Shown piece by piece: positions 17,452 through 19,226 of a DNA stretch of 23,093 nucleotides. Numbering within the stretch: the first letter of the stretch is position 1; every line of letters begins with the position of its first letter. Origin of the DNA: a virus; the IMG/VR virus record IMGVR_UViG_3300046009_006870, positions 1 through 23,093 of that record; one strand, 5' to 3'. A program made the position numbers and the translations under genes. Under the pieces are notes generated by a model, which was not told where the DNA came from, did no database searches, and saw only the letters and a program-made list of their open reading frames with translations.

Positions 17452-18266
17452 AATTTCCCCATTTGTTTGTAAACACTATAAACATATTGGTCTGTTACAA
17501 CTTCACCATCTGCTGTTGTGCCTAAAACATCAGACTTATTACTAACTTGACCTTTCATTTTTAATTTAAAAACATTCCAATATTCAATACCTTCTTGATT
17601 CTTCTTCCTTAGCTTTAGAATACTTAAAAAATTTGTTTTCCAGAAATCATCGTTTTTAATGTATCTTACAATTTCACAAATTTCTTTAAAAGTTAAACCA
17701 TCAATTCTGTTTAGCTTATCAATACAATCTAACCATTTATTTTTTGCAGATTCAGTTTCTGGTTTAGTACCATCAAAAAATTGAACTAAATAATCAAAGG
17801 CTTTAAACACATCCTGCGAAAATTCATTTTTCGTAGAAGAAGGATTATCTTCTTTTCTTTTCTTTTCTTTTCTTTTCTCTTCTGTATTACTATCGTAATT
17901 CGGTCGTAATACGGTCGTATTACTATCGTTATTCGTTCCTAATACTATCGTATTACGTTTAGCCCACCTCTTTTCTACTGATTCTCTGGCTTTTACAGAT
18001 TTTTCTAAGGCATTTTCAAACTGTTCATCTAAGAAATAAATTTTTATAAAACCACCAACTTCTTTAATCACTTTTTTAGATAAAAGATTTTTATAATTTA
18101 CTTCATCACATTCAATAATTGCATCTTCAATAGAAAGTTTAGTTTCATTTATCCAGTATAAACAACATAATTCCATAAATGAAGATTTAGCTTCTGGAGT
18201 ACATTTTTGAATTTTTCCCATCTTCCATTCAGAAATAGAGAATTTAAACCATTGCATTTTTTCCAT
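17448..18266 (-). CDS. Phage replication initiator / helicase-loader-like protein
   Basis: A 272-aa protein. The N-terminal ~100 residues (WFKFSISEWKMGKIQKC, then KSSFMELCCLYW) resemble DUF1376-like winged-helix domains of phage replication proteins. Residues about 105-145 form a low-complexity linker containing an 11-aa repeat (NTIVLGTNNDS / NTTVLRPNYDS) and a Lys/Glu/Arg block (EEKRKEKKRKED). The C-terminal part (FDYLVQFFDG to YWNVFKLKM) resembles helicase-loading domains. The linker DNA consists of iteron-like repeats, as in lambda O. The ATPase gene follows with 4-nt overlap. Initiation at its own gene is inferred. Confidence 0.78.
   Translation of the reverse strand: MEKMQWFKFSISEWKMGKIQKCTPEAKSSFMELCCLYWINETKLSIEDAIIECDEVNYKNLLSKKVIKEVGGFIKIYFLDEQFENALEKSVKARESVEKRWAKRNTIVLGTNNDSNTTVLRPNYDSNTEEKRKEKKRKEDNPSSTKNEFSQDVFKAFDYLVQFFDGTKPETESAKNKWLDCIDKLNRIDGLTFKEICEIVRYIKNDDFWKTNFLSILKLRKKNQEGIEYWNVFKLKMKGQVSNKSDVLGTTADGEVVTDQYVYSVYKQMGKL
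17850..17880 (-). repeat. Polypyrimidine (TTTTC)5 tract in the initiator gene
   Basis: Five perfect TTTTC units on the plus strand (17853-17877), flanked by further TC. On the coding strand it is an A/G tract. The strand asymmetry and adjacency to the 11-bp repeats resemble the A/T-rich part of a phage origin. A pentamer tract is also prone to slippage. Confidence 0.85.
17889..17954 (+). repeat. Six tandem 11-bp iteron-like repeats, candidate origin
   Basis: Six consecutive 11-bp units: ACTATCGTAAT (17889), TCGGTCGTAAT (17900), ACGGTCGTATT (17911), ACTATCGTTAT (17922), TCGTTCCTAAT (17933) and ACTATCGTATT (17944). The core TACTATCGT recurs at 17888, 17921 and 17943, so spacing is 33 and 22 bp, on the same face of the helix. 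The fifth unit is the most diverged. They lie inside the initiator coding sequence and encode its 11-aa repeat. Confidence 0.8.
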
Positions 18267-18268
18267 AA

Positions 18269-18469
18269 CTAATCTAATAAAGCAATTTGTTTACGAAGTT
18301 CTTTAGATAGCTTAATAGCCGTAAACTTATCTAGTATTACACCACAAGTTTCGTGTTCTTGATTAAAATCATCATGATTAACTATTACAATTTCAATTCT
18401 TTGATTGTTCGCTTCTATTTCAATAAAATCTTTTGAAATTAATGCGCATTTAAATTTTAAACTTACCAT
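18269..18469 (-). CDS. Hypothetical protein, 66 aa, first gene of the replication operon
   Basis: MVSLKFKCALISKDFIEIEA, then NQRIEIVIVNHDDFNQEHET, and KFTAIKLSKELRKQIALLD at the end. A beta-rich first half and a C-terminal helix. No family recognised. It starts about 45 nt after a terminator and no promoter is visible between, so its expression probably depends on read-through of the structured RNA upstream. Confidence 0.6.
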   Translation of the reverse strand: MVSLKFKCALISKDFIEIEANNQRIEIVIVNHDDFNQEHETCGVILDKFTAIKLSKELRKQIALLD

Positions 18470-18513
18470 AATAAAATAAAGGTTTTTAGATTACCAGTAA
18501 CTTTTAGTTAAAT

Positions 18514-18604
18514 AAAAAAGCCAAGCTAACGAAGGCGCGTAGGAAAACCTTGTTGCTTGACTTTGTGTTATAAAAAATGTTTTTCGGAGTTTCCTACGCT
18601 TCGA
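18514..18604 (-). ncRNA. Structured RNA before the replication operon, pseudoknot plus terminator
   Basis: Read 5' to 3' on the minus strand: arm A CGAA-GCGTAGGAAA (18603-18590), terminator 5' arm AAGTCAAGC (18563-18555), arm A' TTTCCTACGC (18546-18537) plus TTCG (18533-18530), terminator 3' arm GCTTGGCTT (18526-18518), then six T. A and A' pair over 10 bp without mismatch, plus 4 bp beyond a 3-nt bulge. The terminator arms pair over 9 bp with one G-U. The promoter places the 5' end at the first base pair of A. The order A-T-A'-T' is the same pseudoknot topology as the HNH leader. Confidence 0.65.
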
Positions 18605-18609
18605 TATGA

Positions 18610-18617
18610 CAAATATA
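18610..18617 (-). promoter_or_regulatory. Promoter -7 element of the structured RNA
   Basis: TATATTTG on the minus strand, 6 nt before arm A of the RNA. The -33 region has no clear TTG, so strength is uncertain. Confidence 0.6.
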
Positions 18618-18637
18618 GTAAATTATTTGATTATAAT

Positions 18638-19009
18638 TTATTTTTTTAATTTTTCTTCATTTAAAATTCTTTGCATTCCAAAACATCCTTCTAATATTGA
18701 GTTAGCTCTCTGTGTCAGTGATATTATCATTCCTTCTATTTCATTCTCGTCATAAGAAACGTAATAGCCTTTAGAAGTTGATATTATGGGTAGTATTGCA
18801 TTTACTCGATAATGATTAATTATTTTTCTTAATCTCCTATCTGAAAACTTTTGTGTTAGTTTCATATTTTTATTTACACCAGTTACAATTTCATTTGCTG
18901 TTACTGGGTTATTTTTACTTCTTTTAGAGAATGCAGAAATTAATCGATTAGCTAACATTCTTTCTTCTTCGTTTAGTTCTTCCGTAAAACTCTCATGTCC
19001 GTTTATCAT
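18638..19009 (-). CDS. Winged-helix DNA-binding protein
   Basis: A 123-aa protein from ATG 19009 (MINGHESFTEELNEEERMLA). The central part FSDRRLRKIINHYRVNAILP followed by ISTSKGYYVSYDENEIEGMI matches a winged-helix pattern I know from Bacteroidota phages, where 'STSKGYY' forms the wing. A C-terminal helix (SLTQRANSILEGCFGMQRIL) follows. A regulator or replication accessory role is likely. A frame from 19057 would add 16 hydrophobic residues overlapping the upstream gene and is rejected. Confidence 0.72.
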   Translation of the reverse strand: MINGHESFTEELNEEERMLANRLISAFSKRSKNNPVTANEIVTGVNKNMKLTQKFSDRRLRKIINHYRVNAILPIISTSKGYYVSYDENEIEGMIISLTQRANSILEGCFGMQRILNEEKLKK

Positions 19010-19010
19010 C

Positions 19011-19226
19011 TTATATAAATTTATAAAGTGCAACAATAACAAGTAAAAGCAATACAATGTATAAGAATGTTTGAATCATTTGTAAACAACCATAATTACT
19101 TTCAAATTCTACTTTTTCTGGTTCAATAGGTTCTTTAACTTTTCTTGCTTCTAAGAACTCCGTGTACTTATCTGTGTCGAATCTATCGAAAAACATTATT
19201 CGGTCTATTAGATTAGGTCTTTTCAT
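19011..19226 (-). CDS. Small C-terminally anchored membrane protein
   Basis: A 71-aa protein from ATG 19226 (MKRPNLIDRIMFFDRFDTDK). A charged cytoplasmic-looking part with EPIEPEKVEFESNYG is followed by one C-terminal hydrophobic helix (MIQTFLYIVLLLLVIVALYK). A longer frame from 19376 overlaps the upstream gene in another frame and is unlikely. Function unknown. Confidence 0.6.
   Translation of the reverse strand: MKRPNLIDRIMFFDRFDTDKYTEFLEARKVKEPIEPEKVEFESNYGCLQMIQTFLYIVLLLLVIVALYKFI

Follow-up and report, generated by a model that had tools for sequence, protein, structure and literature searches.

By comparison with related phage loci, the minus-strand leader at 18617-18514 of the window is a genuine RNA whose fold has been kept while nearly all of its letters changed. 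The window is the whole 23,093-nt stretch of virus record IMGVR_UViG_3300046009_006870 and carries replication and recombination genes. The leader joins an intrinsic terminator to a covarying kissing loop and represents a new, apparently unnamed RNA family. The same comparison establishes its promoter motif, its four helices, their layout and the position of the leader at three kinds of gene. A first-pass annotation, made from the letters of the window, had described a minus-strand structured leader, with a pseudoknotted terminator, ahead of the replication operon, and our results support that description.

Anatomy of the leader RNA

On the minus strand, to which all coordinates refer unless stated otherwise, a -7 element is followed in order by hairpin A, a linker, and terminator T, which encloses hairpin B. 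The RNA is about 95 bases long and consists of two hairpins with mutually pairing loops, one hairpin being the intrinsic terminator. The -7 element (TATATTTG, 18617-18610) is of the Bacteroidetes type (consensus TAnnTTTG), and transcription would start at about 18606-18603. Hairpin A (18604-18584) pairs UCG-A-AG (18604-18599) with CU-C-CGA (18589-18584), interrupted by a single A-C mismatch (18601/18587). An A/U-rich linker (18583-18565), AAGAAAUU-like in many relatives, leads to T (18564-18517), in which 18564-18555 pairs with 18526-18517 over 10 bp with one U-G pair; the 9-bp core of this stem (18563-18555 with 18526-18518) is extendable by A18564-U18517. Apical hairpin B (18551-18532) is formed by AAGG (18551-18548) and CCUU (18535-18532).

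The loop of hairpin A (K5, GCGUAGGAAA, 18599-18590) can pair along its whole length with that of hairpin B (K3, UUUCCUACGC, 18546-18537), its exact reverse complement. The resulting helix K, an intramolecular kissing loop, comprises 10 Watson-Crick bp (G18599-A18590 with U18546-C18537); G18599 is common to A and K, and beyond K lie 4 bp between CGAA (18603-18600) and UUCG (18533-18530). The 10-bp stem with its 4 further bp, the 9-bp terminator, the U-run and the -7 element before the stem had all been listed in the first-pass annotation, and each is present on the minus strand at the coordinates given here. That annotation had left open whether the interleaved helices form a pseudoknot or exclude each other. 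The pseudoknot stands, and the need for exclusion falls away: since K links the loops of two hairpins, nothing in the topology prevents K, A, B and T from forming together. The annotation lacked hairpin B, the second copy at 10982-10892, the part that hairpin A plays in the kissing contact, and the small pseudoknot before the start codon described below.

T has the form of an intrinsic terminator, a 10-bp covarying stem followed by a run of six U (18519-18514). A scanner for short-loop terminators missed it in the window because its loop is about 28 nt long. Minimum free-energy folding, which is blind to pseudoknots, returned T and B, and the window fold was more stable than dinucleotide shuffles (z = -2.2). 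It is the comparison of related loci, however, that decides the matter.

Conservation of layout and covariation

With the first downstream gene (ORF66) and the helicase loader as queries, searches yielded some 60 distinct phage loci, and 5' of nearly all of these a descriptor scan picked up the anatomy seen in the window, in sequences that were almost wholly different. Because the descriptor itself selects for K, we added a selection-free test that used the ORF66 loci and their best terminator stem only. When a terminator loop was compared with the 5' region of the same locus, the longest complementary stretch averaged 7.8 nt, as against 5.1 nt for mismatched loci, and reached at least 7 nt in 77% of loci (n = 60 distinct) compared with 10% for mismatched loci.

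The main alignment (A8) held the 29 matches (28 distinct) of a covariance model with A, T and B but without K. In it, 96.8% of the cells of these helices were paired and 19 of 19 pairs showed double changes (A 5/5, T 10/10, B 4/4), figures that are biased towards the three helices because the rows had been fitted to them. With K included there were 27 pairs, of which 25 showed double changes, and 96.5% of 722 cells were paired (0/500 shuffles; slid controls 36-46% paired). K alone was 95.8% paired, with one G-U among 192 cells, versus 31-41% in slid controls; K was absent from the model, yet the model's sequence positions had been trained on many of the same rows. Related sequences are counted repeatedly in these covariation figures, but they still include more than 20 different K sequences.

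Lengths were similar across loci: 3-7 nt from the -7 element to A, a linker mostly of 11-19 nt, and a T span of about 48 nt. Some unpaired bases were conserved; they lie after K5 (A..AUA), in the linker and in a UGA/GGAU internal loop. Helices A, K, B and T total about 28 bp, and by a rough estimate a 13-nt linker would only just span a straight rod of that length. K and T may therefore be strained when formed together, or the rod may be bent at the conserved UGA/GGAU internal loop.

Some descriptor parses (for example at L138, L145, L224 and L199) were wrong or background and were left out of the evidence. At six other loci (L170, L178, L180, L105, L148 and L149) the covariance model missed relatives of the leader that are larger or rearranged and have longer loops or stems.

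The subclass of the window's own copy

Under the general covariance model the window's own copy scored 10 bits and went unrecognised, because its hairpin A is short and contains the A-C mismatch. We therefore assembled a subclass alignment (A11) of 12 sequences with GAAG/CUUC or similar in hairpin A; GAAG/CUUC occurs at L020, L021, L024, L032 and L037. In this alignment 8 pairs of K and T showed double changes (0/500 shuffles; slid controls 0-1), and T alone had 4 covarying pairs. In L003 and L017, two neighbouring pairs of the window's K are changed with compensation, A18595-U18541 becoming G-C and G18594-C18542 becoming A-U. Covarying pairs in related phages, which the first-pass annotation had proposed to look for, were thus found both overall and in the subclass. 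The subclass and the main class agree in promoter distance and lengths, in the order of the helices, in gene context and in the downstream pseudoknot. We therefore treat the two as one family, an assignment based on architecture and gene context, not on model score.

Promoter and downstream replication genes

In 59 of 60 loci the motif TAnnTTTG stands 5' of the terminator stem, and in none of 60 does it stand between the terminator and the ATG. This search covered the known consensus only; promoters of another type, such as one recognised by a phage factor, may occur. The next gene had been annotated as having no visible promoter, and for this consensus that held across the loci. If no promoter of another type exists, every ORF66 transcript must pass T.

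In the window the leader sits between a phrog_2113 gene and ORF66 (18469-18269). Next on the same strand are a DnaD-like helicase loader or replication initiator (18266-17448; phrog_2514, E 2.6e-15) and a primase/helicase-like protein (17451-16459; phrog_18375, E 1.3e-21). Across the roughly 60 distinct loci, the element nearly always lies 42-53 nt before the gene of about 66 aa (ORF66), which is followed by replication genes. The ORF66 family (54 viral relatives) had no PHROG or Pfam match; its C-terminus reads LDKsTAIKLSKELRKQIALLD. The window's protein was predicted to fold as beta-beta-beta-beta-alpha (model pLDDT 79), and the solved structures nearest to the model were MRP1/MRP2 and WHY2, which have nucleic-acid-binding Whirly folds; their E values of 0.4-1.0 are not significant.

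Within the DnaD-like loader gene, about seven 11-bp tandem units (TCGTAATACGG-like, of inverted-repeat character) occupy 17884-17960 of the window, adjoined by a TTCTT tract at 17850-17883. By analogy with lambda O, the 11-bp units look like iterons of a replication origin inside the initiator gene.

Between T and the ORF66 ATG lies a small H-type pseudoknot (18502-18481), in which AG (18502-18501) pairs with CU (18489-18488) and GGU (18495-18493) with ACC (18483-18481). Two of its 5 pairs covary among 17 sequences, and at L105, L125, L148 and L149 it is replaced by unrelated sequence of the same H-type topology. Autoregulation by ORF66 through this pseudoknot, on the analogy of T4 gp32 (PMC535899), is a lead, nothing more.

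A second copy before an HNH endonuclease gene

A second copy of the element, found by the descriptor, lies at 10982-10892. It matched the covariance model at E 8e-7, being itself within the model's training set. Its -7 element (10982-10975) is followed by A (10971-10967 with 10958-10954), K (GUCGCAG, 10965-10959, with CUGCGAC, 10919-10913), T (10935-10928 with 10905-10898) and a U-run (10897-10892). A free-standing HNH endonuclease gene (10886-10383; phrog_59, E 1e-33) begins with an ATG 12 nt after the T stem.

The same arrangement, with the leader directly before the gene and in many cases 9-21 nt from it, recurs at some 16 low-GC loci (about 12 distinct sequences) out of 60 viral relatives of the HNH protein. 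The covariance model matched the HNH leaders L171, L172, L181, L192 and L193 at E 4e-9 or better; L171, L181 and L192 were outside its training set (E 1e-11 to 4e-9). Matches at L165 and L163 were weaker, and at L177 and L179 a plain -7 motif stands 12-26 nt before the ATG in place of the leader.

Distribution of the element

Cultured phages carry the element. It was present in Flavobacterium phage morran9-1 (L010:5895), in Cellulophaga phage phi18:3 (L162:3170-3270; covariance model E 1e-9, not in training), about 13 nt before a primosomal gene in Polaribacter phages P12002L/S, and before an HNH gene in F. columnare phage FCV-1. About 1.3 kb upstream of the morran9-1 element is a separate Rfam RNA, DUF805b (RF02914; L010:4555-4589, 52 bits).

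In the window and 29 relative loci, Rfam 15 (4227 families) gave no match at the element at curated score, the best sub-threshold match being Yfr10 (E 0.17, 24 of 43 bits). In the literature consulted we found no description of a kissing-loop terminator leader. When bacterial copies were sought by a genome scan with a single 8-residue pattern, only an archaeal false match (L081) was returned. We also considered and rejected a phage-wide set of such leaders: sequence spanning the greater part of about 20 phage genomes gave one descriptor match per phage, at ORF66. The descriptor's background in a Markov control was 4 matches in 1.77 Mb.

Little is known about how Bacteroidetes phages regulate their genes, and the leader is a widespread RNA fold at the entrance to the replication operon that free-standing HNH endonuclease genes have also taken up. 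It occurs in growable phages, with Flavobacterium, Cellulophaga and Polaribacter hosts. As all four helices, including the pseudoknot, are backed by compensatory changes, exact mutants can be designed.

Proposed function and alternatives

On balance we favour a cis-acting leader RNA of Flavobacteriia phages, in which read-through of T supplies the downstream genes and K sets that read-through or permits it to be changed. A host-type promoter would start transcription at the foot of hairpin A. As the polymerase advanced, loop A would pair through K with the loop of hairpin B, which sits atop T, and the U-run of T would end 9-53 nt short of the start codon. Only polymerases reading through T would express what lies downstream (ORF66 and the replication genes, a primosomal gene, or HNH). 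By fixing the fold, the kissing loop would set the fraction that reads through, or let something alter it. We infer, then, that T terminates, that read-through feeds the downstream genes and that K affects termination; the leader probably limits the timing or strength of replication-gene expression.

Cis control of read-through is the best explanation because none of 60 loci has a TAnnTTTG promoter between terminator and gene, and cis action is favoured because three kinds of gene have the unit immediately before them in the same orientation. We found no sign of a classical attenuator with an antiterminator, as no mutually exclusive helix with a terminator arm was conserved across loci. In eight pairing tests for an antiterminator, only K and T exceeded mismatched loci; own pairing was no better than in mismatched loci for leader with T5, leader with T3 or T3 with the downstream region. 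Any regulation would therefore act through K, a bound factor or a fixed leak. More tentatively, the leader could be a new kind of attenuator without antiterminator, in which the kissing contact between the 5'-end hairpin and the apical hairpin of the terminator sets termination. A factor or mechanical event that forms or disrupts K would then gate both the replication operon and the mobile HNH genes in Flavobacteriia phages. The riboswitch-like sensor proposed in the first-pass annotation gained no supporting evidence, and a riboswitch or other known RNA seems unlikely for want of an Rfam match. A riboswitch would be expected to have a near-invariant ligand-binding core and to stand before metabolic genes; the leader has the conserved unpaired bases listed above and stands before replication and HNH genes. 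A leader peptide was rejected: the window's leader has no ATG, and the AUGA of its relatives falls within the terminator's internal loop and is not kept as a frame.

The layout, without an antiterminator, would also suit an RNA that simply ends at T. Such a trans-acting phage small RNA, the main rival reading, a product of about 95 nt stabilised by K that hits host or phage targets, with the next gene incidental, would have its own promoter 3-7 nt before hairpin A, a strong terminator and a compact fold of tight lengths (linker mostly 11-19 nt, T about 48 nt) despite sequence change. We consider it less likely than cis action, as the element is always directly upstream, on the same strand, of a gene, in three unrelated gene contexts, and those genes lack a TAnnTTTG promoter of their own. 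Moreover, its loops vary except for the linker and small internal-loop motifs, leaving no constant target seed.

T would also stop transcripts of the same-strand upstream gene (18638-19057), as expected if an ordinary terminator with a 5' stability element shielded the operon from transcription arriving from upstream and K had no regulatory part. An insulator needs neither its own adjacent promoter nor a covarying kissing loop, and we regard this as improbable. Least probable is a self-assembling RNA with K formed between molecules in dimers or rings, as in phi29 pRNA or ROOL/GOLLD: complementary loops covary likewise in multimeric RNAs, kissing loops join ROOL and GOLLD chains (PMC12286853) and K is essentially free of G-U pairs, but intramolecular pairing already explains the complementarity, the linkers look long enough by a rough estimate, and the HNH leaders make a structural role unlikely.

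Comparison with known systems

Like the cis-acting leader favoured here, phi29 pRNA and ROOL/GOLLD are phage RNAs with covarying kissing loops; the leader is much smaller than these, ends in a terminator before a gene and has no Rfam match.

Plasmids pT181 and pIP501 control their rep genes by antisense-RNA-controlled attenuation. They share with the leader kissing loops and attenuation before a replication gene, but here both loops lie in one transcript. An antisense RNA of that kind comes from the opposite strand, and inspection of the plus strand at 18440-18625 revealed no TAnnTTTG promoter, the only type sought there; the sole TTTG is TGACTTTG.

Upstream hairpins of T4-type homing endonuclease genes (I-TevI, segB, Aeh1 mobE) sequester the ribosome-binding site (PMC2988022). 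There too a structured leader probably restrains a homing endonuclease gene, but the element described here forms an intrinsic terminator, with the start codon 9-53 nt beyond the stem. T4 gene 32 has an autoregulatory pseudoknot before the start codon of a replication gene (PMC535899), comparable to the element at 18502-18481; here the first gene, ORF66, is small and its product may bind nucleic acid. T4 gene 32 has no counterpart to the kissing-loop terminator.

With the intrinsic-terminator attenuators of bacteria and phages the leader shares a promoter, a structured leader, a terminator with U-run and a gene without its own promoter. It differs from them in that no exclusive antiterminator is conserved and the terminator loop is tied to the 5' hairpin by a kissing helix that covaries. 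If K does gate termination, this would be attenuation by a tertiary contact rather than by competing helices.
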